From Deltaproteobacteria bacterium HGW-Deltaproteobacteria-18 (lineage in GTDB: Bacteria > Desulfobacterota > Desulfovibrionia > Desulfovibrionales > Desulfomicrobiaceae): a stretch of 64,000 bases of DNA. A program made the translations under genes and the position numbers. Below the pieces are notes generated by a model that did no database searches, was not told the DNA's origin, and saw only the letters and a list, made by a program, of their open reading frames with translations. The stretch is from NCBI GenBank assembly GCA_002841885.1, contig PHBE01000001.1, forward strand, positions 62,001-126,000, in the 5' to 3' direction. Positions 53 to 40,328 of this stretch are shown here, piece by piece. How positions within the stretch are numbered: the first letter of the stretch is position 1; every line of letters starts with the position of its first letter.

Positions 53-1149
53 CGCACGTTCACCTTTGTCCCGTCCTCGACCTCGGTGTGTCCGGCCACG
101 ATGAGCCTGTCACCCGCGATGAGCCCGCTGAGCACCTGCACATGATCACCCTCGATAACGCCCAGCTCAACGGTGCGGGCCTGGGCCACTCCGTCCTGCT
201 CCACGAAAACAACCCGCTCTCCCCCCTTGTCCTGCACGGTGAAGAGAGGCACGGTCACGGCGTCCTCGATCAGGCGTCGCAAAAACGCCGCCCGCGCGAT
301 CATGCCGGGCCGGATCTTGCCGTCGGCATTGTCCACTACCACCCGGACCTGAAAAGTGCGGGTCGCGGGGTCGGCCTTCCAGGCCACGAAATCGATCTCG
401 CCTGTCCACTGCCGCTCGGGATAGGTGTCCACGAGCACCGATACCTTTTGTCCTTCGGCCAGAAAGCGCACGTCGCCTTCAGGCACGTTGAAGTTGATGC
501 GCATGGTGCCCACGTTGACGATATCCGCCACGGGTCCTCCCTCGGCCACGAATTCGCCGGGGTCGACGTGAACCTTGTTGACCACACCGTCGAGAGTCGA
601 CGAAACCGTGCCGTGGTCATACTCGACCTCGGCCTCGCGCAGCCGCGTCCTGGCCGAGGTCAGCTCGTTCTGGGCCTGCTCCAGCTCCTCCCGGGCAAGA
701 ACGCCCTGCTTGTGAAGCTCGGTTCTGCGCCGCAACTGATCTTCGGCCAGCCGCACGTTTGCCCGCGTGCGATCGCGGGCGGCGCCAAGAGCCGAGAGGT
801 CTATGCGGGCGACATGATCTCCGGTGCGCACGAGGCTCCCCTCGGTCACACCGACCCATTCCACGACACCGCCGCGCTGGGCGGCCAACCGCACATCATG
901 CAGAGCCTCGGTCTCCCCGGGCAGAACCAGGATGTCACGCATGGTGACGGTCCTTATCTGCTCGATCATGACATTGACCACGTGCACAGGCCTTTCAGGC
1001 CCAGAAGCCTCTGAGGCAGGGACAGCCTTGCCGTCTCCGACAGCGCCGGAAGTGTCCGCAGGCGCATCCGAGCAACCGGCCAGAAGGCCGAAAAGGCAAA
1101 GGACAAGTGCGATGCGATTCAACATATTCTTTTCCCGAATCATTTTCAT
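49..1149 (-). CDS. RND efflux periplasmic adaptor (membrane fusion protein)
   Basis: This 366-residue lipoprotein is a membrane fusion protein of the AcrA/MdtA type, which bridges an inner-membrane RND pump and an outer-membrane channel. The N-terminus holds a signal peptide ending in a lipobox (LLAGC, Cys about residue 26). A biotinyl-lipoyl-like half at about 85-110 (QRGGVVEWVGVTEGSLV), an alpha-helical hairpin at about 120-175 and a second lipoyl half with DGVVNKVHVDPGEFV follow, then beta-barrel and membrane-proximal domains. The ATG at 1149-1147 overlaps the TetR stop (ATGA) and has GGAG eight bases upstream. The order regulator-adaptor-pump indicates a self-regulated efflux operon; the substrate cannot be read from sequence. 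Confidence 0.9.
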   Translation of the reverse strand: MKMIREKNMLNRIALVLCLFGLLAGCSDAPADTSGAVGDGKAVPASEASGPERPVHVVNVMIEQIRTVTMRDILVLPGETEALHDVRLAAQRGGVVEWVGVTEGSLVRTGDHVARIDLSALGAARDRTRANVRLAEDQLRRRTELHKQGVLAREELEQAQNELTSARTRLREAEVEYDHGTVSSTLDGVVNKVHVDPGEFVAEGGPVADIVNVGTMRINFNVPEGDVRFLAEGQKVSVLVDTYPERQWTGEIDFVAWKADPATRTFQVRVVVDNADGKIRPGMIARAAFLRRLIEDAVTVPLFTVQDKGGERVVFVEQDGVAQARTVELGVIEGDHVQVLSGLIAGDRLIVAGHTEVEDGTKVNVR

Positions 1150-1895
1150 TTCATGTGCTCCGAAATATGTGTGATCCCGCCCAGCGAAAAACGGGTGATG
1201 TGCAGGGCCGCCTCCGAAACCTCGTCGGGAGTGAAAGGCAGGCCGTCGCGCTGGGCCATGAGCGCATCCCTGTTCGTGTTGTAAAAAAGAATCTGGGCCA
1301 CGATGGAGCGCCCCATCATCTGGATGCGCATGTCGTCACGGCCGTCCGCAACCATGCCCCCTTCCAGGGCAAGATCAAGCAGCAGAGGAGCCAGATAATT
1401 CCGGACATCGGCCCTGTGCCTGCGGGCGTGGACCTCGAAAGGTGGCATAGGCCGGACAAAAGCCTCGGACAGCATCTGCCCGAGCATGCACTCGTCCTCG
1501 CGGCCCGCGGGGAGCAAAATGCGGCACAGGAACGCAAACACGAATCCATGCAGGCGCTCGGCCGCAGGGGCGTCGTCCGCCACTCCTCCGTTCATGGGAT
1601 ATATTGCCAGCAGTTCGTCCAAAAGGATGCGCAGGACCTCCGCCAGGAGTTCCTCCTTGCCGCCGAAATGATAGTTCACGGCAGCACCATTGGCCCTGGC
1701 GGCGAGGCATATCTCCCGGACCGTGACCGCACGCCCCTTGCGCCCGAACACCTCCCGCGCGGCCAGCAAGAGCCGGTGCCGCGTCTGGACGTCCGCTGCC
1801 GAATCCCTGCCGTCCTGTCCGCAGCACGGACCACAGCCTTCAATAACTCCCCGCGCGGCCGTCAACAACCGCTCCGCAACCCTTTGCAATGTCAT
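1146..1895 (-). CDS. TetR/AcrR-family repressor of the efflux operon (CecR-like)
   Basis: The 249-residue product has a TetR helix-turn-helix at about residues 37-85 (VREICLAARANGAAVNYHFGG) followed by a long C-terminal ligand domain resembling the CecR/YbiH group. I place the start at the ATG at 1895, which has AAGGGG five bases upstream; a longer frame to 1946 would run through the operator palindrome. About 35 residues precede the DNA-binding domain, more than usual, and include a Cys-rich stretch (GCGPCCGQDG) that could bind metal or sense thiols; that is speculation. The gene overlaps the adaptor gene by four bases and sits directly behind a 13-base inverted repeat, so autoregulation is likely. 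Confidence 0.85.
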   Translation of the reverse strand: MTLQRVAERLLTAARGVIEGCGPCCGQDGRDSAADVQTRHRLLLAAREVFGRKGRAVTVREICLAARANGAAVNYHFGGKEELLAEVLRILLDELLAIYPMNGGVADDAPAAERLHGFVFAFLCRILLPAGREDECMLGQMLSEAFVRPMPPFEVHARRHRADVRNYLAPLLLDLALEGGMVADGRDDMRIQMMGRSIVAQILFYNTNRDALMAQRDGLPFTPDEVSEAALHITRFSLGGITHISEHMK

Positions 1896-1902
1896 GGGCA
1901 CC

Positions 1903-1931
1903 CCTTGTTTCAAACGGCGTTTGAAACAAGG
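1903..1931. promoter_or_regulatory. Candidate TetR operator palindrome
   Basis: Two perfect 13-base arms, CCTTGTTTCAAAC at 1903-1915 and GTTTGAAACAAGG at 1919-1931, flank a three-base GGC spacer. The site lies immediately upstream of the TetR start codon and overlaps its ribosome binding site. Its size and perfect symmetry fit a TetR dimer site controlling the efflux operon. Confidence 0.75.
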
Positions 1932-1981
1932 TTTTGTTTTCGTCAAGCATAAAAATGCTCAACCTTCGCGCCCTGGCGCCC

Positions 1982-2014
1982 AAAAAAACCCGTCTGGGCA
2001 CGCGCACAGACGGG
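1982..2014 (-). terminator. Rho-independent terminator after manC
   Basis: An 8-bp stem (CCCGTCTG with CAGACGGG, 1989-1996 and 2007-2014) is followed on the minus strand by seven T. It lies downstream of manC and of the manC-like tail remnant and would stop leftward transcription before the efflux operon. Confidence 0.8.
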
Positions 2015-2050
2015 AAAGCAGAATTGCGGAAATAAAGCCTCAAGGCGCTT

Positions 2051-2080
2051 TCAGCGCCCGTAGACGTCCTCGAAGCGCCT
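2051..2080 (-). pseudogene. 3'-end remnant of a second manC-like gene
   Basis: Read leftward, this stretch encodes RRFEDVYGR followed by TGA. The last eight residues and the stop match the C-terminus of the intact manC 70 bases upstream (RFEDVYGR, TGA at 2149-2147). All nucleotide differences across those eight codons are synonymous (CGT/CGC, GAA/GAG, GGC/GGG, CGG/CGC). In this frame a stop codon lies three codons before the matching part, so only the tail survives. It looks like the scar of a paralogous gene removed or replaced by recombination. Confidence 0.6.
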
Positions 2081-2146
2081 ACTACATTAAGCTCAGCTTT
2101 TGCCCGCAGCAACGCGGCGACGCAGCAATCGGGCCTTTATCGCCCC

Positions 2147-3556
2147 TCACCGGCCGTAGACGTCTTCGAAACGGACGATATCGTCCTCGCCAAGATAGCT
2201 CCCGACCTGCACCTCGATCAGCTCAAGCGGAATCTTGCCCGGATTGGCCAGGCGGTGCACCGCGCCAAGAGGCAGGTACACGGATTCGTTTTCGCGCAGC
2301 ATGATCTCCTCGCCGTCCCGGGTCACCACCGCCGTGCCATGGACCACCACCCAATGCTCGGCGCGATGAAAATGCTTCTGCAGGGACAGGACCTGCCCCG
2401 GGAGGACCGCAATGCGCTTGACCTGATAGCGCGCGCCGTCGCCGATGGACTCGTAATGTCCCCAGGGCCTGAAGACCTTCTTGTGCGAGACGGCCTCGAT
2501 GCGATTCTCGGCCTTGAGCTTGTCCACGATCTTCTTGACTTCCTGCACCCGGTCGCGCGGCGTGATGAGCACGGCGTCGGAGGTCTCGACCACGATGTGG
2601 TTCTCAAGTCCAACGGCAGCCAGGAGGCGCGTCTCGGCGTGCAAATAGGAATTGTGCACGTCGCAGAGCACCACATCTCCCCTGGTCACGTTGCCGCTAT
2701 CGTCCTTGCCCCCGGCCTGCCACAGGGCGTCCCAGGAGCCAAGATCGTTCCAGCCGCAGGACAGCGGGACCATGACACCCCGGTCCGTCTGCTCCATGAC
2801 CGCGTAATCAACGGAATCCTCGGGGCAGGCGGCAAAGGTTTCCCGGTCCAATCGCAGAAAATCGAGATCCTGTCCGGCAAGCTCAAGAGCCTTGCGGCAG
2901 GACACGACGATGGCCGGTGCAAAGCGGTCCAGTTCGGTCAAAACGGCTTTTGCCCGGAACACGAACATGCCGGAGTTCCAGAAATATTGTCCCGAGGCGA
3001 CATAGCCCTCGGCCGTAGGCAGATCGGGTTTCTCCACGAAACGCTCGATGGCGCGGGCCGTTGAGTCCGGAAGCGCCGGTCCCTGCAGGATATAGCCGTA
3101 CCCGGTCTCGGGGGCCGAAGGGACGATGCCGAAAGTGACCAGATGATCCGCAGCGGCATGCACGGCGGCCTGACGCACGGCATCGTGGAACCGCTCCGGA
3201 TCGCCGATGAGGTGATCCGCCGGAAGCACGAGAAGTACGGCCTCGGAATCGGTCTCAAGAGCCTTGAGGGCCGCGATGGCCACGGCCGGTGCAGTGTTTC
3301 TGCCGACGGGCTCGAGGATGATCGCTGCCGGGGACACGCCAAGGGCACGCATCTGCTCGGCGATGATGAAACGGTGATCTTCGTTGCAGATGATGATGGG
3401 CTGCGCGACTTCGTCCAGGCCGTGCAAGCGCAGCAGCGTGTTCTGGACCAGGGTCCGGTCGTCGACGAGCGGCAGCAGCTGCTTGGGATACAGTTTTCGC
3501 GAGAGGGGCCAAAGCCTTGTGCCGGACCCTCCGGCAAGAATGACTGGTATGATCAT
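2147..3556 (-). CDS. manC: Mannose-1-phosphate guanylyltransferase / mannose-6-phosphate isomerase
   Basis: This 469-residue bifunctional enzyme makes GDP-mannose for surface polysaccharides, interconverting fructose-6-P and mannose-6-P and then joining mannose-1-P to GTP. The N-terminal nucleotidyltransferase carries the GGSGTRLWPLSR signature at about residues 9-20 and FVEKPD around 180. The C-terminal cupin-type isomerase domain (from about 345) contains QKHFHRAEHW. Length is typical for AlgA/ManC/CpsB. The ATG at 3556 has GGAG seven bases upstream; a longer frame to 3634 adds only unrelated residues. It stands alone, divergent from the rhodanese gene. Confidence 0.95.
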   Translation of the reverse strand: MIIPVILAGGSGTRLWPLSRKLYPKQLLPLVDDRTLVQNTLLRLHGLDEVAQPIIICNEDHRFIIAEQMRALGVSPAAIILEPVGRNTAPAVAIAALKALETDSEAVLLVLPADHLIGDPERFHDAVRQAAVHAAADHLVTFGIVPSAPETGYGYILQGPALPDSTARAIERFVEKPDLPTAEGYVASGQYFWNSGMFVFRAKAVLTELDRFAPAIVVSCRKALELAGQDLDFLRLDRETFAACPEDSVDYAVMEQTDRGVMVPLSCGWNDLGSWDALWQAGGKDDSGNVTRGDVVLCDVHNSYLHAETRLLAAVGLENHIVVETSDAVLITPRDRVQEVKKIVDKLKAENRIEAVSHKKVFRPWGHYESIGDGARYQVKRIAVLPGQVLSLQKHFHRAEHWVVVHGTAVVTRDGEEIMLRENESVYLPLGAVHRLANPGKIPLELIEVQVGSYLGEDDIVRFEDVYGR

Positions 3557-3787
3557 GTTCTGCTCCAAAAAAAAGAAATGGGGGACATGCGCGCCAAAAC
3601 CTGGCCTATGTACCTTGGATGATGACAAAATCAAATGGCAATTTCATGGCCCCTTGCCATGCGGGGCGGGGCATGCGCCAACCGCCGACCCCTGCCCGGT
3701 TCTGCCCGGCAAGGGGTCTGGATTTATGAAAGTCTTTGCCGTACAGGGAGGGCTAACGCCAACCGCGGCACACAAAGAGGCAGGGTG

Positions 3788-4621
3788 ATGAGCAGACAAG
3801 TGATAGATATCTTTCCCGATGAGCTTGAAGAACTCAAAAGCAAGACCAGAGAGCGCGACTATCTGCTGATCGACGTCCGTCAGCCTGGAGAATTCGCCCA
3901 GGGCCACATCCCTGGCGCCCAGCTCATCCCGCTGCCGGAAATCGAAAGCCGCATGACGGAGCTGGACGGAGAAAAAAACCTCATCCTGTATTGCCGCACC
4001 GGCGGCAGGTCATCCGTCGCGGCCGCCCTGATCAAGGACGCAGGACCCAGGCAGGGGGCGCTCTACAACCTGGTCGGGGGGATCGCCGGGTGGGAAGGCA
4101 AGGGCCTCAAGGACATCCCGCACCTGGAACTTTTTCCCCGGGACATGGCCCTGAACCAGACCCTTTACCGGGCCATGAACATGGAAAAGGGTGCATGGCT
4201 GTTCTACAATGAGCTGGCCCAAGAATACAAGGGCGCGGAACTCGGCGACATGATCAAGGACCTTGGCGGCATGGAAGAGGTTCATGCCCGCGCCATCTTC
4301 ACCTACTGGAAGAAAAACAGCCCCACGCCCATCACCGACGGTTTCGAGGAAACGTTCGAGCGCCTGGACGGACGGATCATGGAAGGCGGCAAGCCCATCT
4401 CGGCCTGGATGGCCCGCCTGGGCAAGGACCCGCAGGATCGCATGCTGCGGCTTCTGGAACTGGCCTGCGAGATCGAGTACTACGCCTACGATCTCTACCG
4501 GGGCCTGGCCAAGCGTGACCGCGACACCGAGGCGGTCAAGACCTACCTGCTGCTGGCCGAGCAGGAAAAAGCCCATGTCCGTGTCGTCACCAAAGCTCTG
4601 GACCGGTTTTTTGGTGATTGA
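3788..4621 (+). CDS. Rhodanese - ferritin-like (rubrerythrin) fusion protein
   Basis: The 277-residue cytoplasmic protein has an N-terminal rhodanese domain (about 1-112) with the active-site loop YCRTGGRSS, Cys69, and a C-terminal four-helix ferritin-like domain (about 120-277). The second half keeps paired carboxylate/histidine motifs, EEVHAR and AEQEKAHVRV, plus ACEIEYYAYD, as in rubrerythrin di-iron sites; no rubredoxin CxxC module is present. Rhodaneses carry persulfide sulfur; rubrerythrin-like domains reduce peroxide or act as iron oxidases. A link between sulfur transfer and oxidative stress is inference. The start at 3788 follows GAGGCAGGG. The 3' end overlaps the next gene by eight bases. 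Confidence 0.85.
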   Translation: MSRQVIDIFPDELEELKSKTRERDYLLIDVRQPGEFAQGHIPGAQLIPLPEIESRMTELDGEKNLILYCRTGGRSSVAAALIKDAGPRQGALYNLVGGIAGWEGKGLKDIPHLELFPRDMALNQTLYRAMNMEKGAWLFYNELAQEYKGAELGDMIKDLGGMEEVHARAIFTYWKKNSPTPITDGFEETFERLDGRIMEGGKPISAWMARLGKDPQDRMLRLLELACEIEYYAYDLYRGLAKRDRDTEAVKTYLLLAEQEKAHVRVVTKALDRFFGD

Positions 4622-5525
4622 GGTCTTCCTGAGGCAGACGCCGGACTACACCCATGCCGCTGGCATGATCCCGGAACTGCTCGACAACGTGCTCCCGGAC
4701 ATCGCCGGTTCCCGACTGCTCATCAAACCCAACTTCGTGGCGCTGCGCGGCTCGCACCTGTGCTGCACCCATCCCGCCGTCATCGCCGCCGCCGCAGGAC
4801 ACTGCGTTGCACGCGGGGCGCAGGTCACCGTCGGGGATTCGCCCGCCTTCGGCACGGCCCAGACCATAGCCAAGGGCATCGGACTGACCGAACTGCTGCG
4901 CCCCCTTGGCGTGGAGGTGGTCACCCTGAACAACGGGGTTTGCGTCAAGAGCGGACCCGTGCAGGTCCAGGTCTCGTCCGTCGCTCTGGGCGCCGACCTG
5001 ATCGTAAATCTCCCCAAGTTCAAGGCCCACTCGCAGATGCGCTTCAGCGGCGCGGTGAAAAACCTGTTCGGATGCGTGACCGGCGTGCGCAAGGCCTGGC
5101 TGCACGCCCGGCACGGCGACAAAAAGAACCGCTTCGTCGACATGATCTGCGGACTCATGCAGGTATTGCCACCCACGGTCAGCCTCATGGACGGCGTGCA
5201 GGCCATGCACCGCACCGGGCCCATTGCAGGCGATGCATATGCGCTGGGTTTCATGGGGGCGAGCTCCAGCCCCGTGGCCCTGGATACCGCAGCGGCAATG
5301 GTTTTGGGCACGGGGCCCGAATTCATCCCCATCTGGGCCCACTGCCTGCGCGAGAAGCTGCCCGGAGCCGAAACGGCAACCCTGGACTTTCCCCTGCAAA
5401 GACCCGAGGATTTCGACGCTGCGGACTTCATCCTCCCTGCGTCCCTCAAACCGGAATCGTTCCGGCCGGACATCCTGATCAGGAGTCTCATCAAACGCAT
5501 GTGGCTGGCACGATTCAAGCCCTGA
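4614..5525 (+). CDS. DUF362 domain protein
   Basis: This 303-residue protein matches the DUF362 family through KPNFV near the N-terminus, GDSPAFG and the core NLPKFKAHSQM...GAVKNLFG. The function of the family is unknown; some members carry ferredoxin domains, but no CxxCxxC cluster is visible here. I use the GTG at 4614 as start; TTG at 4611 is an alternative. It overlaps the rhodanese-ferritin stop by eight bases, so the two genes are probably coupled. hypF follows after 58 bases in the same direction. Confidence 0.75.
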   Translation: MIEVFLRQTPDYTHAAGMIPELLDNVLPDIAGSRLLIKPNFVALRGSHLCCTHPAVIAAAAGHCVARGAQVTVGDSPAFGTAQTIAKGIGLTELLRPLGVEVVTLNNGVCVKSGPVQVQVSSVALGADLIVNLPKFKAHSQMRFSGAVKNLFGCVTGVRKAWLHARHGDKKNRFVDMICGLMQVLPPTVSLMDGVQAMHRTGPIAGDAYALGFMGASSSPVALDTAAAMVLGTGPEFIPIWAHCLREKLPGAETATLDFPLQRPEDFDAADFILPASLKPESFRPDILIRSLIKRMWLARFKP

Positions 5526-5583
5526 AACAGACGGCGCAGGATTCAATCCAACAATACGGACGTTACAACACCGGATTCTTCAA

Positions 5584-7884
5584 ATGCTCATGCAACGCTG
5601 GAAATGGATCATCACCGGAGGGGTGCAAGGGGTAGGCTTTCGGCCCTTCGTCTACAAGGCGGCCCTGCACGCAAAGGTCACGGGGCGGGTGCTGAACACC
5701 CCCGAAGGAGTGCTCATCGAGGTACAGGGCACCCTGGACCAACTTGCCACCTTCGAAGACACCTTCTCCGCCACCATCCCGCCCTTGGCACGCATCGTGA
5801 CCTTGGACCGGGAGGTGATCCCGCCGCTGTCCGGCGAGGACGCCTTCCGGATCCTCAAGAGCACGGGCGGACACGGACATCAGGTGCTCATCAGTCCCGA
5901 CGTGGCCACCTGCGACGACTGCATCGCGGACATGCGCGACCCGTCGGACCGCAGATACCGCTATGCCTTCACCAACTGCACCAATTGCGGACCGCGCTAC
6001 ACCATCACCCGCGCCATCCCCTACGACCGCGCCTGCACCTCCATGAGCTGTTTTCCGCTCTGTCCGGACTGCCTCGAAGAATATGAAAATCCACTGGACA
6101 GGCGCTTCCATGCCCAGCCCAACGCCTGCCCCGCGTGCGGCCCGAAACTGTGGCTGACGGACAGGACGGGCCGGACACTGTGCGAGAACGACGAAGCCGT
6201 GCGCCGCACCTCCGCCCTGCTGCTCAAGGGCGGACTTTTGGCCATGAAGGGTCTGGGCGGATTCCATCTCGTCTGCGACGCCCGCAACCAGGTGGCGGTG
6301 CAGGAACTCAGGACCCGCAAGAACCGCAAGGACAAACCCCTGGCGATCATGGTTGCGGACCTCGATGCGGCCCGGGCCTTCTGCGTCCTCAGCGAGGCCG
6401 AAGAGGAGCTGCTAATCGGCAGGCAGCGGCCCATCGTCCTGGCCAAGGCCCGCAAAGGCTCGGGACTCGCGCCGGGCCTGTCCCCGGACACCGCCTTTTT
6501 GGGAGTGATGCTGCCTTATACGCCCCTGCACCACGTGCTCTTCGACTATCTCGGACGCTCCGAAATTCTGCCCGCGGCCCTGGTCATGACCTCGGGAAAC
6601 CTGAGCTCTGATCCAATTTGTCTCGGCAATCGCGAGGCCCTCAGGCGCCTTGGAAGCATTGCCGACAATTTCCTGCTGCACGACCGCGACATCCTGATCC
6701 GCTGCGACGATTCGGTGCTGCGGGTGGTAGACGAAAAACCCCAGTTCATCCGCAGGGCGCGCGGCTACACCCCCGCCCCCATCGACCTGGCCAAGGACGG
6801 CCCCGTGGTGCTTGGCGTCGGCCCCCTGCTGAAGAACACTCTCTGCCTGACCAAAGGGCGACAAGCCTTTGTTTCGCAGCATATCGGCGATCTGGAACAC
6901 CTCGAGGCCTACGGCTTTTTCCGGGAGATCTGCGCCCATCTGCAAGACATCCTGCAAGTGGAACCAAAGGCCGTGGTCCATGACCTGCATCCGGATTTTC
7001 TGAGCACCGGCTTTGCCCGCGAGTCCGGGCTGCCCTGCCTGCCCCTGCAGCATCATTTTGCGCACATCCATGCTGTCCTGGCCGAAAACAGATACATCGG
7101 GGCGGCCATCGGGCTGGCCCTGGACGGAGTTGGGCTGGGCGACGACGGAACCATGTGGGGCGGCGAGGCCCTGCTGGTCGATACGTCAAAGCTCGAACAC
7201 AGGCGGCTGGCGCGCTTTTCACAAATCATGCTGCCCGGCGCGGACGTGGCCACACGCGAACCCTGGCGGCTGGCGCGGGCCCATCTGCATGCCCTGAACA
7301 TCCACGTCCCGGACGAAAAACCCTGGCCATGGCTAGAGAAACATGCCGCCGCCGACAAGGTCGTCGGGCAGGTGCTTGAGCGCCGCATCAATTCGCCGCT
7401 CTCCTCCAGCTGCGGACGACTTTTCGATGCAGTGTCGGCCATGCTCGGCCTTTGCGAATGCATCTCCTACGAGGGTCAGGCGGCGATCCGGCTGGAGGCG
7501 GTGCAGGACAAAGATGAAAAAGGTGTTTATTCGTGTTCCGTAATCGAATATGACCAAATCGTGGAACTTGATACCTTGGAACTTTTTGCGCAGGTTCACG
7601 CACAGTGGCGCGAAGGTGAATGCCCGGCAAAAATAAGCAGGCGCTTTCACCTTGGTCTCATTGACGGTCTGAGCAGGCTTTACTCCCATCTGGCCGCACG
7701 GTGCTCATGCAACACCGTGGCCCTGAGCGGCGGGGTCATGCAGAATCTGACCCTGGCCACTGAGCTTCCCAAGGCTCTGGCCGCACAGGGAGCAACCGTG
7801 CTGACCCACTGCGAACTGCCGCCCAACGACGCCTGCATTTCTCTTGGCCAGGCCGCCTACGGCCAACTGGTCCTGCAACCCTAA
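5584..7884 (+). CDS. hypF: Carbamoyltransferase HypF, NiFe-hydrogenase maturation
   Basis: HypF (766 residues) uses carbamoyl phosphate and ATP to carbamoylate HypE, supplying the cyanide ligands of the NiFe site. The domains appear in the normal order: acylphosphatase (GVQGVGFRP at about 13-21), two zinc-finger motifs with CDDC, CTNC, CPDC and CPAC at about 110-185, a YrdC-like adenylation domain (about 205-390), and a Kae1-like C-terminal domain with HHFAHIHAVLAE near 490. The length is as expected. No other hyp gene or hydrogenase structural gene is in the window, so the maturation set is split in this genome. sppA follows after 14 bases. Confidence 0.96.
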   Translation: MLMQRWKWIITGGVQGVGFRPFVYKAALHAKVTGRVLNTPEGVLIEVQGTLDQLATFEDTFSATIPPLARIVTLDREVIPPLSGEDAFRILKSTGGHGHQVLISPDVATCDDCIADMRDPSDRRYRYAFTNCTNCGPRYTITRAIPYDRACTSMSCFPLCPDCLEEYENPLDRRFHAQPNACPACGPKLWLTDRTGRTLCENDEAVRRTSALLLKGGLLAMKGLGGFHLVCDARNQVAVQELRTRKNRKDKPLAIMVADLDAARAFCVLSEAEEELLIGRQRPIVLAKARKGSGLAPGLSPDTAFLGVMLPYTPLHHVLFDYLGRSEILPAALVMTSGNLSSDPICLGNREALRRLGSIADNFLLHDRDILIRCDDSVLRVVDEKPQFIRRARGYTPAPIDLAKDGPVVLGVGPLLKNTLCLTKGRQAFVSQHIGDLEHLEAYGFFREICAHLQDILQVEPKAVVHDLHPDFLSTGFARESGLPCLPLQHHFAHIHAVLAENRYIGAAIGLALDGVGLGDDGTMWGGEALLVDTSKLEHRRLARFSQIMLPGADVATREPWRLARAHLHALNIHVPDEKPWPWLEKHAAADKVVGQVLERRINSPLSSSCGRLFDAVSAMLGLCECISYEGQAAIRLEAVQDKDEKGVYSCSVIEYDQIVELDTLELFAQVHAQWREGECPAKISRRFHLGLIDGLSRLYSHLAARCSCNTVALSGGVMQNLTLATELPKALAAQGATVLTHCELPPNDACISLGQAAYGQLVLQP

Positions 7885-29134: not shown

Positions 29135-31402
29135 TCAATTCCCGCGAAACGCCCCGAAGCGTGCGCTTTCGACACGCACCGCCTCTTCCCCTCGCCAGCG
29201 GAATCTGAGCGCGCCGTGATCGGCAGTGGTCAATACCTCAAGGCCCGCCCGCCTGCAGGCCCGCACTACGGAAGGGTGAGGAAAACCGAAACGGTTGCCC
29301 GGTCCGCAGGCAGCCACGGCCAAATTCGCCCCAACCTCGGCATAAAAACGCGGGTGCAGGCTCGATTTGGAGCCGTGATGGGGAAGCACCAGGACCTCGG
29401 CCGAAAGCGCCCGCCCCTGGCTTGTAAGCTGCTCAAGGGCGCGTTTTTCCAGATCGCCAGGCAGTAGGGCCAGCCCGCGCCCCTTCCAGACCAGACGCAG
29501 CACCAGCGAAGTGTCGTTGTCGGAACTGCCGGTCTCCGTGAAGGCAGGATGCAGCACTTCAAGATGCAGGTCGGGCTCTATGACAACATTGTCTCCGGCA
29601 CGCAGCATTCGCACCGGCCATGGATTCTGATCCAGCCTGGCCACCAGCCGCCCCGAATCATTTGAGCTGTCCACAAGCCCGCTCCATCCGAACCAGCCCA
29701 CATCAAAAGCCTCGAGAATGTAGAAAAGCCCCCGCAGGTGATCAGCATGGACATGGGACAAAAGCACCGCGTCCACCTGTGGAGGATGCATCCAGCTCAG
29801 CGCCGGCCCAACCACCGCACGCCCCGGATCATAGTCGGCGCTCCACCCTCCCCCGCCATCCACGAGGACTGTCCTTCCAGTCCTGCCGCGTACAAGGATC
29901 GCCTGACTCATCCCTGTATCAAGCACCGTCATTTCAACCTCGTCACGCAGTTGCCCACCCTCCTGCCACAATGACGGAACGGCCAGCAACGTCAGCCCAA
30001 CTCCCAGAAACAGAAACGCCTTTGCCCGGGGCCGTGCAGCGTCCAGAAGCACGCTCCCCGCCACCAGCGCGACTCCGTACCCGACCACCTGCATTCCCGA
30101 AGGGCGCAGCACCGGCGTTACCGCAAGGTTGCCAGCCCCATCGAGAAACACCAGGCAGCGATCCAGAACGTCCACTCCCCAGGCCGCCGCGAAAAAGAAT
30201 TTTTCGGCCAGAAACGAACACCATGGTGCCGCCGCAACCCCCAGAAAAGACAGGGGCAGCACTGCCAGACTGAGCACCGGCAGCCACAGGAGATTGAGCC
30301 ACAGATGCGCCGTGACTTCGGAGAAATACAGAACCTGCGCAGGCAGGATGAAAAGATTGGCGCAGCATGTCACCGCCAAGGGTGTCAACAGCCAATGAAA
30401 GCTTCGCCAGAAGGCGCTTCGCTCACGTAAGGGAGCAAGCAGGGCCGCCGCCGCGGGCATGAAAAGGACGAGACCGGCGACGGCCAGCACGGAGAGCTGC
30501 AAGCTCAGATCGTGGACCGCTGCGGGATCGGCAATGGCCAGCACGGCCATGGCGGCAAAGAGTGCGTCCTGTGGATGCGACCTGGCTCCGATGAAGAGAT
30601 GCAGGACCACGGCGGCAAGCATGACGAAAGCACGCAAAAGTGAGGGGGGAAAATCGCCGAGCCACAGATAGGCGACAACCGGCGGCAAAGCCAGAAGCGC
30701 GGCCAGTTTTCGGCGCGGGAGGAACAGGAGCAGCGTGGGGCAGACCCGACTCAAAACCCTGGCCGCGCCCAGGCCAAAGCTTGCGACCAGAGCCAGATGC
30801 AGCCCTGACAGAGCCAGGCTGTGGGACAGCCCGGCCCGACGGATGCGGTCCATGAAGGCGGTCCCAAGCAGCAGTCTGTCCCCGAAGAGAAGCGCCCTGA
30901 CCGCCGCGCCGCCCTGCGTGTCCGGCACCAGCGTGCAGGCCAGATCCAGCAAGCGGCTTCTAAGACTGGTCCGCCCTTCACCCCAGATTACAGGAGCAGC
31001 GCCACGCGAATACGCCCGGTAACGAACATCCATGCGCATCCAGTATTCCTCGCTGGAGGAAAGGCCGAAATTGACCCTTGAGCGCAATTCACGAATGCGC
31101 AGATCGGCCGTGAATTCCCGGCCGATCTGCGGCACGAGGGGAGGATCCGTCCAGGTCCAGAGCAGTCGACCCGGCAGGGTCGCATTCATGTCCACCGCCG
31201 CCACATCGCGGACGAAAACACTGACCCTGCGCCCCGGATGCGTGCGCACCTCATCCACGACACCATGTATCCGCACCGGGGCGTTCCATACCACCGCCGT
31301 ATCATGCTCTGCAGCGGGCGCACCCGCAAGCAACCCCAGGCAGAAGAATGTCGCCATGAGCACAAGGGTTCGACCGCGACGGGCAAATGCCAGCGCGGTC
31401 AA
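29135..31402 (-). CDS. comEC: ComEC/Rec2 DNA-internalisation channel protein
   Basis: From the first usual start codon (TTG, 31402) this encodes 755 residues: an OB-like domain (about 45-140), the multi-span ComEC competence domain (about 185-450, with HSLALSGLHLAL and LPPVVAYLWLGDFPPSLLRAF) and a metallo-beta-lactamase-like domain (about 500-740) with SHVHADHLRG and LPHHGSKSS. The protein forms the inner-membrane channel for single-stranded DNA uptake. The reading frame stays open for 57 codons upstream, to a stop at 31576-31574, and encodes a hydrophobic stretch (WQLWVLGYLGGILAW) expected of the ComEC N-terminus, so the real start probably lies upstream at a non-standard codon. Confidence 0.88.
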   Translation of the reverse strand: MTALAFARRGRTLVLMATFFCLGLLAGAPAAEHDTAVVWNAPVRIHGVVDEVRTHPGRRVSVFVRDVAAVDMNATLPGRLLWTWTDPPLVPQIGREFTADLRIRELRSRVNFGLSSSEEYWMRMDVRYRAYSRGAAPVIWGEGRTSLRSRLLDLACTLVPDTQGGAAVRALLFGDRLLLGTAFMDRIRRAGLSHSLALSGLHLALVASFGLGAARVLSRVCPTLLLFLPRRKLAALLALPPVVAYLWLGDFPPSLLRAFVMLAAVVLHLFIGARSHPQDALFAAMAVLAIADPAAVHDLSLQLSVLAVAGLVLFMPAAAALLAPLRERSAFWRSFHWLLTPLAVTCCANLFILPAQVLYFSEVTAHLWLNLLWLPVLSLAVLPLSFLGVAAAPWCSFLAEKFFFAAAWGVDVLDRCLVFLDGAGNLAVTPVLRPSGMQVVGYGVALVAGSVLLDAARPRAKAFLFLGVGLTLLAVPSLWQEGGQLRDEVEMTVLDTGMSQAILVRGRTGRTVLVDGGGGWSADYDPGRAVVGPALSWMHPPQVDAVLLSHVHADHLRGLFYILEAFDVGWFGWSGLVDSSNDSGRLVARLDQNPWPVRMLRAGDNVVIEPDLHLEVLHPAFTETGSSDNDTSLVLRLVWKGRGLALLPGDLEKRALEQLTSQGRALSAEVLVLPHHGSKSSLHPRFYAEVGANLAVAACGPGNRFGFPHPSVVRACRRAGLEVLTTADHGALRFRWRGEEAVRVESARFGAFRGN

Positions 31403-31696: not shown

Positions 31697-32116
31697 ATGG
31701 AAGAGTTTTCAGTACTGCTTGTGGACGATGAGGAAGACTTCCTGCGCACGATCATCAAAAGACTGGCCAAGCGCGGCCTGAAGGTCCAGGGGGCGTCCCG
31801 GGGCGAGCAGGCGCTGGCCATGCTCGCCGAGGAACCACGCGACGTGGTTGTGCTCGATGTGAAGATGCCGGGCATGGACGGGCTGGAAGTGCTGAGAAGA
31901 ATCAAGGCAGACTGGCCCAGCACCGAGGTCATCATGCTCACCGGTCACGCCAGCATCGACGCGGCCATGGAAGGGATGAACCGTGGAGCCTTCGACTATC
32001 TGATGAAGCCTGCCGATCTGGAAGACCTGCTCTACAAGCTTGAAGACGCGTATCGCAAAAAGAGCATCAACGACAGCCGTCAGGCCGCATCCACCACAAA
32101 CAGCGATCCGGCCTAG
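31697..32116 (+). CDS. Single-domain response regulator (CheY-like receiver)
   Basis: The 139-residue protein is a bare receiver domain: acidic pocket VDDEED (Asp10, Asp11), phosphoacceptor Asp54 in VVLDVKMPG, the switch Thr in VIMLTGHA and Lys in LMKPAD. About 15 residues follow the domain and no output domain is present. The ATG at 31697 has AAGGAG six bases upstream. The next gene starts 28 bases after its stop, so the two probably form an operon. No partner kinase is adjacent. Confidence 0.93.
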   Translation: MEEFSVLLVDDEEDFLRTIIKRLAKRGLKVQGASRGEQALAMLAEEPRDVVVLDVKMPGMDGLEVLRRIKADWPSTEVIMLTGHASIDAAMEGMNRGAFDYLMKPADLEDLLYKLEDAYRKKSINDSRQAASTTNSDPA

Positions 32117-32144
32117 GCCGGGCTCTTTTACAACAGGACTTGAC

Positions 32145-35100
32145 GTGGCGCATTCCCGTCTCTTCTTCGATTCCAACGACTATACGCTGCTGCGCATCGT
32201 CAATGATGTTCTGGACCGCACGGCGCAGAACACCAATATCCGTTCCCTGCTCGATTCGTGCATGCATCCGCACGGCATCAAGGAAATGGCCGCGCCGCGC
32301 GTGCTCCGCATCGCCTATGCCATCGCGAGCCTCCTCGGTTCCCTGGAAGTGGGCATGTCCTCCGACCGGCTCAACGCATTGCGCGCACTCAAGGACGAGG
32401 TGCTGCTCGCGGGCAACGCCTATCTGCAGAAGAACACCTCACGGGTGCTCCTGCAGATCATGAAGGAGCTCATACGCCATCGGGAGGACGAGCACACCCA
32501 GCTGCGCCTCGCGCATGACTTTCGCATGGCCTCCTCCGGCAAGCCCCGCGTGGTCCGGGCCGAGCTCGACAAATACCACCTCCTGGAAATGCCCGAGGAG
32601 TGGAACCAGCTCGCCTTCGACCACCATGTCCACGACGCCAACACCAAGGGCCGCAAATCCCCGACCCACCTGGTCATGGACGCCTGGATCAAGGGCGTGC
32701 GTTTTCTGACCGTGGTCTACTACAACTATGTAGACGCCGAAGTGGCCGAGGAACTCCTGGAAGCGGGCTGCATACTGGGCATGCACATCCGCATCGGCAT
32801 CGATGTTTCCTCCCGCTTTCGAGGCAAGTATGTACGCGTGATCTGGGAGCCCCAGAGCTACACCGATCCCAAATCCTTCCGCGCCTTTCTCGGAGAGCAG
32901 CCGGTCAAGGCCTTCATGAAGGAAGGGCGGATGGTTTCCGCCTATCAGCAGAAATACGTCTTCGAAGCCTTGCAGGCATACAACCGCATCCACCGTATCG
33001 AACTGGCCAAGGAGTATGGCCTTGAACTCGACATGCTCGACGAAAAGGCCTTCGCCACTTTCGTGGGCACGGGGCAGCCGTCCCTCCTGCATCTGGCCAA
33101 ATACATTCAGAGCGGGATGCATCCCAAGCTCAAGCAGGCCGCGCAGGGCATGGCCCAGGAGTACGAAACCGCCACACCTAAGCGGCGCCAGGAGCTGGAG
33201 GAACATCTCAAGGCCCTGAACGCCATCGATTCGGAACTGCTCATCAACCGCTACCTGCAACCATGCCGCAACCCGGAGTTGCACGACCCGACCATTCCCC
33301 AGGATACTCCCGAAGTCCCGCCCCTGCTGCGCCTCAACATCGGAGAACTGCTGCCAAGGCTGGCCAAATTTCACTCCACGTCTCATTTCACGCTGAACCT
33401 GAGCAACCTCTCCACGGCCGATGCCCTGGAAATTCTGTACGACTGCCAGGGACACATCAGCAACATCGAGCTCTACAACCTCAAGGACGCGGCCAGAGGC
33501 AAATGGTCAATGCCCGTGTCGTCGCATCTGGTCTGTCCGGGCGACGTCGTGGATGCCATCAGCCCGGAACGTACGTGCGCCCAGATTGCGGAACTGCAAA
33601 AGGCTCTGAACGAAGACAACGTCATCGCCTTGAAACGCGCCATCCGTGCCGTGATATGGTCCTTCGAGGAAGATCGGCTGTCACTGGAAAACACTCTGGC
33701 CCATGCGCGAAACAAGAACGTGCTCTCGCATGCGACCGGGCTTGAACGAGAACGTCTGCTCATGGAGGCGCGCAAGAACAAGCTTCTCGACATTCTTTTC
33801 AACATCGAAACGTTCCACAAATACTACAAGAAGCGCCCCCTGGGCTCACGCATTGGAAGTGGTTCCACGGGCCAGTCGCGGCATCAGTTCGGAATGGGTG
33901 TGGTGGTGCTTGAAACTCTCCCCAAACGAGCCCAGAGAATCGCGCTGAATCAGTCTCAAAGGCAGCGCAAACAGCTCCCGGTCACCGCCAGGATGACGGT
34001 TCATTTCCGCACCCGCTGTCACACAAAAAAGGAAGATCCTTTTCTTTTGAGGCTGGCCCGGAGGATACCCGGAATGGAACTGGCCGGGTGCTGCCGGGAG
34101 CAGGAATGGTTTCTCGACAGCATCGACATCCATCCCAAGCGCCTGGGCAACATCGTCACCCTGGGCGGCGTGCAGCTAGAGCACGACAACGGACTACGCA
34201 TCACCAAGAAAGATGGTTCCGACGACGAAAACCACATGTCCCTGAAGTACCTGAACACGGGGCTGAAGAACGTCCTCAAGATCCTGATCGGGTTCATTCC
34301 GGCCTTCCTGACCTTTGCCCTGACCAAGGACTGGTGGGTGCTGGCCTATTTCGGGGGGCTGATCTGGTTCGCCATCACCGGCGTGCGCAACATTCTGCAG
34401 GCAGTGCTCGGCGGGGGCGGCTTGACGCGCTCACCTCTTTTACAGTGGAACTCCCTGATCAGTTGGAGCCGCGTTGCCGACGATCTGCTCTACACAGGCT
34501 TCTCCGTCCCCCTGCTGGATCTTTTGGTCAAGACCATTATCCTGGATCGTGGTCTCGGCATCACCACGGCCACGGACCCGGTTTTGCTTTTTGCGTCCAT
34601 GGCCCTGGCCAACGGCATCTACATCTCCAGCCACAATACCTTCCGCGGCCTGCCGCGTGCAGTGGTCCTGGCCAATTTCTTCCGCAGCATCCTGTCCATT
34701 CCGCTGGCCGTCCTCTTCAACAGCGGCATAGCCGGAAGCATGCACATGGCAGGACTGACCGGGGTGGAGCAGACGCTTCAGAAATGGGCCGCTATTATCT
34801 CAAAATTCGCCTCGGACTGCGTGGCCGCGGTCATCGAGGGCCTCGGCGACCGTCACAACAATGTGCGGGTGCGCCTGGCCGACTACCGTGCCAAACTCAT
34901 CGCCATGTTCGACGCCTTTGCCCGTCTGGATGTCCTTTTCCCGGAAGAAGACGTGCTAGACATGCTCCAGTCCCCCAAAATGTTCATGGAGACCATTTCC
35001 TACGAAGCGCGCGACCTGGAAAAGGTGCTCATCGTCAACGCCCTCGACCTCATGTACTTCTGGCTCTACCAGCCCCGGGCCGCGAAGGCCCTCGAATTCA

Positions 35101-35303
35101 TATCCCAGGACTTGAGCAAGGAGGAGTGGCTCATCTTTCTACGCTCCCAGTACGTGCTCAAGCGCTACCGCGAGATCAGCCAGATGTTCGTGGACGGACT
35201 GGTAGGCAAGAACTTTTCCCGGGCGCTGGCCTTCTATCTGGACAGGTCGGATGAATACCTGCTGGATATGGAAAAAATGGGGCGCAGCCGCAGGCTGCGT
35301 TGA
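32145..35303 (+). CDS. Large PHP-like membrane protein of unknown function
   Basis: This 1,052-residue protein starts at GTG 32145 with AGGA upstream. The first 700 residues are soluble. Around 155-240 they contain DHHVHD, VYYNYVD and GMHIRIGIDVSSRFRG, which resemble the metal-ligand pattern of PHP/TIM-barrel hydrolases. At about 705-760 and 780-890 there are four to six membrane segments with RGLPRAVVLANFFRS, and about 160 cytoplasmic residues close the protein. A weak resemblance of the membrane part to 'Gcr-type' membrane proteins is only an impression. I cannot name a function. It is downstream of a lone response regulator, which may control or bind it. Confidence 0.6.
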   Translation: MAHSRLFFDSNDYTLLRIVNDVLDRTAQNTNIRSLLDSCMHPHGIKEMAAPRVLRIAYAIASLLGSLEVGMSSDRLNALRALKDEVLLAGNAYLQKNTSRVLLQIMKELIRHREDEHTQLRLAHDFRMASSGKPRVVRAELDKYHLLEMPEEWNQLAFDHHVHDANTKGRKSPTHLVMDAWIKGVRFLTVVYYNYVDAEVAEELLEAGCILGMHIRIGIDVSSRFRGKYVRVIWEPQSYTDPKSFRAFLGEQPVKAFMKEGRMVSAYQQKYVFEALQAYNRIHRIELAKEYGLELDMLDEKAFATFVGTGQPSLLHLAKYIQSGMHPKLKQAAQGMAQEYETATPKRRQELEEHLKALNAIDSELLINRYLQPCRNPELHDPTIPQDTPEVPPLLRLNIGELLPRLAKFHSTSHFTLNLSNLSTADALEILYDCQGHISNIELYNLKDAARGKWSMPVSSHLVCPGDVVDAISPERTCAQIAELQKALNEDNVIALKRAIRAVIWSFEEDRLSLENTLAHARNKNVLSHATGLERERLLMEARKNKLLDILFNIETFHKYYKKRPLGSRIGSGSTGQSRHQFGMGVVVLETLPKRAQRIALNQSQRQRKQLPVTARMTVHFRTRCHTKKEDPFLLRLARRIPGMELAGCCREQEWFLDSIDIHPKRLGNIVTLGGVQLEHDNGLRITKKDGSDDENHMSLKYLNTGLKNVLKILIGFIPAFLTFALTKDWWVLAYFGGLIWFAITGVRNILQAVLGGGGLTRSPLLQWNSLISWSRVADDLLYTGFSVPLLDLLVKTIILDRGLGITTATDPVLLFASMALANGIYISSHNTFRGLPRAVVLANFFRSILSIPLAVLFNSGIAGSMHMAGLTGVEQTLQKWAAIISKFASDCVAAVIEGLGDRHNNVRVRLADYRAKLIAMFDAFARLDVLFPEEDVLDMLQSPKMFMETISYEARDLEKVLIVNALDLMYFWLYQPRAAKALEFISQDLSKEEWLIFLRSQYVLKRYREISQMFVDGLVGKNFSRALAFYLDRSDEYLLDMEKMGRSRRLR

Positions 35304-38747: not shown

Positions 38748-40328
38748 TCAACCAGCCTCTTCCATGGTGTCCGGATTTTCAAAAATGGCCTGCAGCTCGT
38801 CCATGCACTGCTCGGCATGGCCGTGCAGCATCTCGCGCACGACCCGGATCAGGGCCTGCGCACGAGTCTGAAGCTCCTCCAGGGAACCGGAATTGTCGAC
38901 CACCAGCTGCGCCAACCCCACCTTTCTTTGCTGGGGCCATTGCCAGGCATCGACCATGGCTATCCGTTCCGGACTCCAGCCCCGGCCCCGGAGCCTGTCA
39001 TGCCGCAGGCTGTCAGGACAATACACCACCGCCAGCAGGTCGATCTCTCCGGCAAGGCCGGCTTCGCAAAGCAGGGGGATCTCGGCCAGGATCACGTCCT
39101 CGTCATGCGCGGCCCGAAAGGCGTGCAGGGCATGTCGCACCAGAGGATGGACCAGTCGTTCAACCTCGCGGCGCAGGCTGTCGGATTCGGCCAGGGCGCC
39201 CAGCAGCAGGTCCTTGTCCACCCCGCCTCCGGGATGCGTGAAACGGGTTCCGAAATGATGCTCCAGAATGGCGCAGCCCTCGCCTCCCTTGGCGTAGGAC
39301 CCGGCCACCACCCGGTCCGCACAGAAAACCGGCACGCCCATCTCTTCGGCCACCGCCCGCACGGTGGACTTGCCGCTGCCCACGGCGCCGGTCAGGCCGA
39401 TGCAGGCCCGCTCCCGGCAAAGCCCGCGCAGAACCTGCAGAAAATCCTCCGGCGGAGGAGCGCAAAATTCAAGAGGCTCAAGACCTCGGGGATGTTCGAA
39501 ACGCAGTTGCCAGGCATGCAGCATCTGCCGGGGAGCGCGTGCGGCGGTCATCTTGTCGGCATAGACCGCGTCCCCCAGCAGGGGGTGACCCAGCGCGGCC
39601 AAATGCACACGGATCTGGTGAGTGCGCCCGGTCATGATGCGCACCCGTAGCAATGAAACACTTCTGTCCGATGCACTCCAGAGCACTTCATACCGGGTTT
39701 CCGCCACGCGGCCGCCGCGTTCGACCACGGCCATGCGCGTCTTGATGCTCGGATGACGTCCCAGGGAAAGATTCACGATTCCGGTGGGCTCGGGCACTCC
39801 GGCGACAAGGGCCAGATATTCCTTGTAGACCTCACGGGAGGCGAAGGCCTGAGTCAGATTCAGGCGCGCCGATTCGGACAACGCCAGCACGATGAGCCCG
39901 GAGGTGTCCTTGTCCAGTCGGTGCACGATCCCGGGACGTTCCCCGGACTGTGACAGCAGGACTGGAAAATGATGCGCAACGCGATGCACAAGGGTCGGTT
40001 CAGCCACCGAAGGCGCCGGATGAACGGTCATGGCCGGGTTCTTGTTGACCACAACCAGATCGTCATCGGCGAAAAAGACATCCAGCGGACCTTCATCGGG
40101 AACGATGGTCGAATCAGCATACTCGGGAGCCAAGGTCAGGGTCTGACCGGGCATGAGCCGGGTCGCCGCCTTGCTGCAGACCTGCCCGTTGATGCGCGCC
40201 CGCCCGTCCTTGATCCAGGCCTGGACGCGGCTTCTGGCCACGCCCTCCTCCTCGAGGCAAGCCTGCCAGAAAACATCCAGACGCTGCCCGACGTCCGCGA
40301 CGCCAACCTTTTCCACGTATTCCTGCAT
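38748..40328 (-). CDS. Fusion of RluA-family pseudouridine synthase and dephospho-CoA kinase
   Basis: One 526-residue frame encodes two enzymes. Residues 1-65 are an S4 RNA-binding domain and about 80-300 an RluD-type pseudouridine synthase with catalytic Asp139 in HRLDKDTSG and GRTHQIRVHL. From about 310 a CoaE-type kinase follows, with P-loop GAVGSGKS (314-321), FCADRV and LAEIPLLCEAGL. CoaE phosphorylates dephospho-CoA in the last step of CoA synthesis. The junction is short (LRGLCRERACI) and in frame, with no stop or internal start of note, so this is a genuine fusion. Downstream is the rhomboid gene. Confidence 0.92.
   Translation of the reverse strand: MQEYVEKVGVADVGQRLDVFWQACLEEEGVARSRVQAWIKDGRARINGQVCSKAATRLMPGQTLTLAPEYADSTIVPDEGPLDVFFADDDLVVVNKNPAMTVHPAPSVAEPTLVHRVAHHFPVLLSQSGERPGIVHRLDKDTSGLIVLALSESARLNLTQAFASREVYKEYLALVAGVPEPTGIVNLSLGRHPSIKTRMAVVERGGRVAETRYEVLWSASDRSVSLLRVRIMTGRTHQIRVHLAALGHPLLGDAVYADKMTAARAPRQMLHAWQLRFEHPRGLEPLEFCAPPPEDFLQVLRGLCRERACIGLTGAVGSGKSTVRAVAEEMGVPVFCADRVVAGSYAKGGEGCAILEHHFGTRFTHPGGGVDKDLLLGALAESDSLRREVERLVHPLVRHALHAFRAAHDEDVILAEIPLLCEAGLAGEIDLLAVVYCPDSLRHDRLRGRGWSPERIAMVDAWQWPQQRKVGLAQLVVDNSGSLEELQTRAQALIRVVREMLHGHAEQCMDELQAIFENPDTMEEAG

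Follow-up and report, generated by a model that had tools for sequence, protein, structure and literature searches.

A stretch of 64,000 nucleotides from the 3.99 Mb genome of Deltaproteobacteria bacterium HGW-Deltaproteobacteria-18 (assembly GCA_002841885.1, contig PHBE01000001.1, positions 62,001 to 126,000; the whole stretch is called the window hereafter) encodes a lone response-regulator receiver followed by a large membrane protein of 1,052 residues. According to its predicted structure, residues 155–660 of the large protein belong to the PHP superfamily by fold, and an alignment of its relatives shows that the canonical three-metal site of this superfamily is not kept; a different set of conserved residues probably forms one pocket in its place. 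The open reading frame (ORF) is evidently a real gene, judging from 80 mostly full-length homologous loci and strong motif conservation in 81 aligned sequences. By its sequence matches the family is widespread, mainly in Desulfobacterota, and no description of it was found in the searches made.

The PHP-like character that a first-pass annotation of this DNA had suggested for the soluble region is borne out by structural and profile comparisons. The model of the full-length protein has a mean predicted local distance difference test (pLDDT) of 83.7 and a predicted template-modelling score (pTM) of 0.82. When residues 155–660 of the predicted model were compared with known structures (VIA), 3o0f was matched with a Z score of 19.0 (root-mean-square deviation 2.8 over 256 aligned residues) and 3e0f likewise; Vibrio RNase AM (9etk) and 2yb1 followed at 17.8, PHP domains of DNA polymerase III at about 12 (2hnh, 12.1), and the first non-PHP row at 8.7. 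Profile comparison (hhalign) with 22 ordinary PHP proteins, 2 from the window's genome and 20 from its phylum, gave a probability of 90.7 and an E value of 1.3e-6 for this single comparison. In addition, a distant homologue of 954 residues (L112, genome G161; 27.5% identity in the best stretch) reaches ordinary PHP proteins of about 300 residues by sequence search alone, with a best E value of 3.1e-7. The barrel and the D-x-H-x-H first motif and GxE strand are common to the large protein and the RNase AM / 3',5'-nucleoside bisphosphate phosphatase type (9etk, 7ug9, 2yb1, 3o0f; NF041577, NF047791). Unlike this type, the large protein has Lys, Tyr and Thr in place of metal ligands 3, 4 and 9, with variation at others, and carries long helical insertions, an N-terminal helical region and a C-terminal membrane domain. 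A PHP fold with several metal ligands lost is likewise described for the variant PHP domain of E. coli DNA polymerase III alpha in the available part of PMC3666897; the large protein differs from it in its invariant polar residues and in having a membrane domain, not a polymerase, as partner.

The PHP superfamily is characterized by nine metal-coordinating residues and three metals (PMC3666897, available part), and the accessible portion of PMC9410882 names His13, Asp20, His45, Glu72, His83, His198, Asp255 and His257 as holding three manganese ions in RNase AM, where the D20A variant is catalytically inactive. All 22 ordinary PHP proteins keep both His of the first motif, the His residues of TDH, of the strand and of HP, the Glu of GxE and the Asp of SDG; 21 of them keep the [S/T]DxH motif. 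The remaining RNase AM ligand we take to be His15.

The large-protein family departs from this pattern in an alignment of 121 family sequences, on which the residue counts below rest. The first two PHP ligands correspond to H161 (113/121) and H163 (114/121), both within the DHHVHD motif (residues 159–164). Two gamma-metal ligands of RNase AM, Asp20 (ligand 3) and His45 (ligand 4), are replaced by K168 (Lys in 118/121) and Y193 (Tyr in 112/121); Glu72 (ligand 5) aligns with position 220, which is Glu in 110 sequences and Asp in the window. By strand order, Asp255 (ligand 8) falls on position 573, Asp in 67/121 and Gly in 36/121 including the window, and the gamma-metal ligand His257 (ligand 9) on T575, Thr in 107/121. 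The nine-ligand site is not kept: positions 3, 4 and 9 are replaced, 5–8 vary, and 1, 2 and 5 are mostly retained. With these ligands exchanged, the site departs from the canonical PHP type, and a new active site and a mere binding site are both compatible with it. The first-pass annotation had seen a PHP-like His/Asp pattern here and proposed to check it for a metal site; a canonical one is contradicted by the family-wide loss of ligands 3, 4 and 9 and the variation at 5–8. The later part of that pattern, GMHIRIGID (residues 212–220), aligns as the PHP 'GxE' strand and is not a second His/Asp cluster.

Other residues of the barrel are conserved more strictly than the retained ligands. D159, D164, R170, K171 and D179 occur in 121/121 sequences, and H175 and H316 in 120/121. 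H316, which lies in an inserted segment, aligns with the GRPH-motif His of ordinary PHP proteins, the RNase AM type included. The mean top-residue frequency of the pocket-side loops, which were picked after the motifs were known, is 0.84 compared with 0.47 for the rest of residues 155–660. The distant homologue L112 is closer to ordinary PHP proteins, with a Glu at the Asp20 position and an NHP motif; since it retains more of their features, a gradual replacement of the ligands would fit.

Downstream of the barrel, long predicted hydrophobic helices at about residues 705–868 agree with the C-terminal membrane domain of the first-pass annotation. Conservation in this region is high (mean 0.73), and R748, N749, Q752, R762, R776, N823, H830, N831, R834, R847, K887, D891 and D902 are among the residues conserved in at least 99% of the sequences. 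Modelled alone, residues 697–1052 reached a mean pLDDT of 82.4 and a pTM of 0.69; against the PDB they gave no clear match (best Foldseek E value 1.4, best VIA Z score 6.5), which does not by itself prove a new fold. The coordinates of both genes and of the regions of the large protein are collected in the table.

Table. Features of the receiver and large-protein genes; coordinates refer to the window, residue numbers to the large protein.
Feature	Coordinates	Strand	Basis or remark
Single-domain response-regulator receiver, 139 aa	31697..32116	+	PF00072, E 1.4e-31; upstream pairing in bacterial family
PHP-fold membrane protein (predicted), 1,052 aa, GTG start	32145..35303	+	stop at 35303; no Pfam family at E<=1
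N-terminal helical region, residues 1-154, conserved	32145..32606	+	predicted helical; mean top-residue frequency 0.68 (121 sequences)
PHP barrel (predicted), residues 155-660, helical insertions ~242-371 and ~474-562	32607..34124	+	VIA match, predicted secondary structure
First PHP motif, rebuilt, residues 159-179, DHHVHDANTKGRKSPTHLVMD	32619..32681	+	D159, D164, R170, K171, D179 invariant
Membrane domain (predicted), residues 697-900, ~4-5 hydrophobic helices	34233..34844	+	hydrophobicity, predicted helices, conservation
C-terminal helical tail, residues 901-1052	34845..35300	+	predicted helical

The absence of a match to any known family, as originally reported, holds for the family libraries searched. 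The window protein matched no Pfam family at E<=1, PF02811 included, and none of seven relatives matched one at E<=0.1; PADLOC and PHROGs yielded no family at E<=0.1. Two NCBIfam PHP models gave weak matches inside residues 157–252, well below their equivalog cut-offs: NF041577 (3',5'-nucleoside bisphosphate phosphatase) with 13.7 bits against a cut-off of 400 (E 0.026, residues 157–233) and NF047791 with 11.4 bits against 375 (E 0.14). A PDB sequence search with the family profile returned two rows (E 1.3 and 2.2) that were taken as chance. The literature search, judged by title and with most subscription journals and supplements outside its reach, found no description of the family.

Relatives of the large protein were found in 366 contig stretches, and contig-locus counts rest on the best 80, in which the best segments are 46–85% identical to the large protein and nearly all full-length. 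By title these 80 are nearly all delta-proteobacterial (Desulfobacterota) or unresolved metagenome-assembled genomes (MAGs); one carries the label Myxococcota and another CSSED10-310. The closest loci (L002–L007, 69–85% identity) include three Desulfomicrobium MAGs. A profile of 71 family members, used for the whole-genome searches, matched 32 of 297 genomes of the phylum, 164 of 199 genomes and 32 of 43 genera of the order, and all 22 genomes of the window's bacterial family; the plasmids searched gave no match. Some genomes carry more than one copy: at least two matches were found in each of several g3 genomes and in G413, and L062 holds two adjoining, converging copies about 30 bases apart (285–3386 on the plus and 3416–6532 on the minus strand). 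In G301 (L175, L179) the match is divided over two frames, reflecting a sequencing error or a decayed copy.

The receiver and the large gene are separated by 28 bases (32117–32144), exactly as first described, and are probably co-transcribed. The frame of the large gene stays open further upstream of the GTG at 32145 in the window; support for this start comes from L002 and L007, where the frame is already closed 6 and 3 codons, respectively, ahead of the aligned position. A terminator-like hairpin at 32107–32122, between the two genes, was considered and rejected; it is one of 7 such sites compared with 4.8 expected (standard deviation 2.2), and it is not retained in most relatives inspected. 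Judged by its sequence, the receiver looks ordinary: it matches PF00072 and carries D10/D11, D54, T82 and K104 (read by eye), which we take to be the Asp pocket, the phosphoacceptor Asp and the Thr and Lys of such domains. Elsewhere in the window, a single ORF (38748–40328, minus strand) unites two enzymes, RNA pseudouridine synthase (PF00849) and dephospho-CoA kinase (PF01121).

All 22 genomes of the bacterial family carry the large gene, with upstream sequence visible in 21, and in 19 of these the large protein's aligned start follows the end of a same-strand receiver frame by 6–40 bases; no receiver lies just upstream in G312 and G314. The pairing spans two genera and persists in relatives whose large protein is about 51% identical. 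Among the best 80 contig loci, three of which have less than 430 bases of upstream sequence, a receiver stands beside the large gene in 7 (L002–L007 and L011), all nearest relatives of the window. Within the loci covered here, same-strand partnership with the receiver is confined to one bacterial family. Its closest relative in G312 (67% identical) is the third receiver of a cluster encoding a dCache histidine kinase (HK), three response regulators (RR) and TauE, which is divergent from comEC, with the PHP gene elsewhere. In a phylogenetic tree this third receiver is the sister of a clade made up of the receivers paired with the large gene; that clade has a support of 0.93, and the two together 0.87. 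Unlike the HK-RR-RR-RR-TauE cluster of G312, the window's receiver stands by itself, flanked by comEC on one side and the PHP membrane gene on the other. A divergent comEC is likewise found beside the receiver in the window (a ComEC-like gene at 29135–31402, minus strand), L223, L226 and L227. Because the sister receiver belongs to such a cluster and comEC is divergent in both settings, the receiver seems to be derived from a comEC-locus signalling cluster that was joined by the large gene, or whose other genes were replaced by it. A junction of comEC with two-component genes was also found in L220, L223, L226 and L227.

Other signalling genes adjoin the large gene outside the window's family. 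In a neighbour survey of 90 loci from 29 genera, all within the order except L120, the large gene lies between a kinase and receivers in 17 of 21 g217 loci and 3 of 14 g223 loci, the kinase 11–155 bases downstream and the receivers upstream; both are on the opposite strand and so are not co-transcribed with the large gene. Over 554–561 residues, the kinases found in L233, L240 and L250 share 33% identity with that of G312, and the L233 kinase carries a dCache domain. In the bracketing cluster of L233, receiver number two (3848–4741, minus strand) has a C-terminal CBS-domain match. A kinase of another type occurs in 2 of 3 g205 loci, another kinase lies 24 bases upstream on the same strand in G406, and L044 and L039 have same-strand hybrid kinases 189 bases upstream and 212 bases downstream, respectively; L082 encodes a 342-residue receiver protein 203 bases upstream. 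An HK or RR lies within 400 bases in at least one locus of 9 of the 29 genera. Averaged by genus, two-component genes number 0.23 per locus within 400 bases versus 0.06–0.12 beyond 1.5 kb; the enrichment stems from g1 (the genus of the window), g202, g217 and g223, since the rate within 400 bases drops to 0.10 without them.

GGDEF or EAL proteins occur within 400 bases in 10 of 193 loci, with none at 400–3700 bases and 4 at 3700–4800 bases, the outer bins being covered by 261–321 of 386 flank sides. In six of the ten, a GGDEF-EAL or EAL frame precedes the large gene on its own strand; the large proteins of these six loci are 57–59% identical to that of the window, and the loci come from the 33 in the 54–61.5% identity band. 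Three, all in g203, have a same-strand receiver-GGDEF gene upstream, and in the last the gene is on the other strand. Pfam confirms one neighbour of the GGDEF-EAL type and one of the receiver-GGDEF type (L015, L289). It is important to point out that the loci are not independent: the 20 kinase/receiver-bracketed loci represent two genera, and the six GGDEF-EAL loci are relatives. Among the neighbour groups listed, no single gene family adjoins the large gene across all lineages; those standing out are receivers, GGDEF-EAL genes (present in 8 loci, and in 6 of them within 500 bases) and generic ABC ATPases (8 of 55 loci). Signalling genes adjoin the large gene in several lineages, their kinds differ, and most loci have none. 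The suggestion of the first-pass annotation that the receiver controls the large protein has fared unevenly: the adjacency that it proposed to check is kept within the bacterial family, at close spacing, while most loci elsewhere have no receiver and the sister receiver of G312 lies in a separate cluster. Receiver control is weakened, and partly rescued by the other signalling neighbours; because of these, regulation stays plausible.

A hint towards lipid chemistry comes from a second group of neighbours. A glycerophosphodiester phosphodiesterase (GDPD; PF03009) gene adjoins the large gene on the same strand in G161 and in the g223 genomes G413, G438, G440 and G481, and directly downstream on the same strand in L038, L048 and L050; Pfam confirms this neighbour in L112, L239, L048 and L050. 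G413 holds both arrangements (L271 and L272), one copy bracketed by kinase and receivers and the other with a GDPD gene upstream. The PF03009 search covered 125 family-positive genomes; of these, 104 come from the 164 positive genomes of the order and the other 21 from elsewhere in the phylum. The chance expectation of adjacency is estimated at well under one, a figure based on 80 listed matches and an assumed 3,500 or so genes in each of the 125 genomes. The pairs represent three lineages at most, L038, L048 and L050 being 76–89% alike, and three g4 genomes with a GDPD gene some 6–10 kb from the large gene were excluded from the count.

We tentatively favour, at less than even confidence, the view that the large protein is membrane-anchored and that its rebuilt PHP pocket binds, and probably hydrolyses or transfers, a phosphate-containing group at the membrane as the output of lineage-specific signalling genes. 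A barrel of the RNase AM / nucleoside-bisphosphate phosphatase type would have lost most of its three-metal site, and the pocket would have been rebuilt around the invariant D159, D164, R170, K171 and D179 together with K168, H175 and H316, which are all but invariant. Invariant polar residues are also present in the membrane domain itself (e.g. R748, N749, Q752, R776, H830, N831, R834, R847, D891 and D902). The substrate may be a phospholipid head group or glycerophosphodiester in the first instance, or a signalling nucleotide in the second. We infer the phosphate chemistry, the substrate and the cytoplasmic side of the protein. In the window, the signalling gene in front of this output would be the receiver. 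Several observations weigh against the proposal. The conserved residues could be structural. The HxH pair is not fixed, with R161 in 8/121 and Y163 in 7/121 sequences (position 193 in the latter seven being Glu in six and Asp in one); ligands 6–9 were placed by strand order and by eye; and the C-terminal half of the barrel, compared by profile with PHP proteins, gave no match (probability 0.7, and 7 columns once the insert was removed). A PF03009 match is present in 69 of the 125 genomes, adjacent to the large gene in 5, and absent from 56, and the adjacency was first noticed and then counted. Since neighbours differ between lineages, none identifies the function.

A possible alternative, if somewhat unlikely, is that the barrel is a non-catalytic ligand sensor that binds a phosphorylated metabolite or nucleotide and gates a working membrane domain, either a transporter or a channel. 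The exchange of canonical ligands for Lys, Tyr and Thr, the many invariant polar residues of the membrane domain and the signalling genes adjacent in several lineages would suit such a pseudoenzyme, as would the E. coli Pol III precedent of a variant PHP domain for which the available part of PMC3666897 gives neither metal nor detected nuclease activity; retention of the HxH pair and Glu220 in most members speaks against it, as does the lack of a recognised transporter fold in residues 697–1052, a lack that is not proof of absence. The same precedent (PMC3666897, available part) and the conservation of the membrane region (0.73) could be taken to mean that the barrel is a structural relic holding together a protein that functions through its membrane domain alone, which we consider improbable given that conservation within the barrel peaks in the pocket-side loops (0.84 versus 0.47). 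Less probable still is the earlier view of a canonical metal-dependent PHP phosphoesterase switched by the receiver. The fold, the frequencies of H161, H163 and Glu220 (113, 114 and 110 of 121) and the receiver, which lies 28 bases ahead of the gene and is retained in 19 of the 21 informative genomes of the bacterial family, are in its favour; it is opposed by the change of the gamma-metal ligands Asp20, His45 and His257 to K168, Y193 and T575, by the Gly at position 573 (Asp255) in the window, by the inactivity of RNase AM D20A (PMC9410882, accessible portion) and by the many relatives with no adjoining receiver. Finally, the receiver could be a positional neighbour without functional coupling, a descendant of a kinase-receiver-TauE cluster beside comEC behind which the PHP gene happened to land. 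This is possible, if on the unlikely side: the G312 sister receiver (67% identity) sits in just such a cluster divergent from comEC with the PHP gene elsewhere, the receiver also has a divergent comEC beside it in the window, L223, L226 and L227, and most outside loci have no receiver, and yet two genera retain the pairing, with large proteins as little as about 51% identical, a dCache kinase and receivers bracket the large gene in 20 other loci, and GGDEF-type genes adjoin it in other lineages. Because the GGDEF genes concentrate within 400 bases, we judge this account less likely.

A protein of about 1,000 residues is present in most sampled genomes of a bacterial order, below every family-library cut-off used. 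It is rather doubtful that it represents a new class of membrane effector, in which a Lys/Arg/Asp pocket and a membrane domain of unrecognised fold act on phospholipid head groups, glycerophosphodiesters or a signalling nucleotide and have repeatedly been placed under signalling systems, namely a receiver in the window's family, a kinase with receivers in one genus and part of another, and GGDEF-type genes in two other lineages. If the rebuilt pocket is active, it would bring new chemistry to the well-studied PHP fold; if it is inactive, a hydrolase fold would have become a sensor coupled to the membrane. With the invariant residues listed above, both of these readings, an active pocket and an inactive sensor, can be tested directly.

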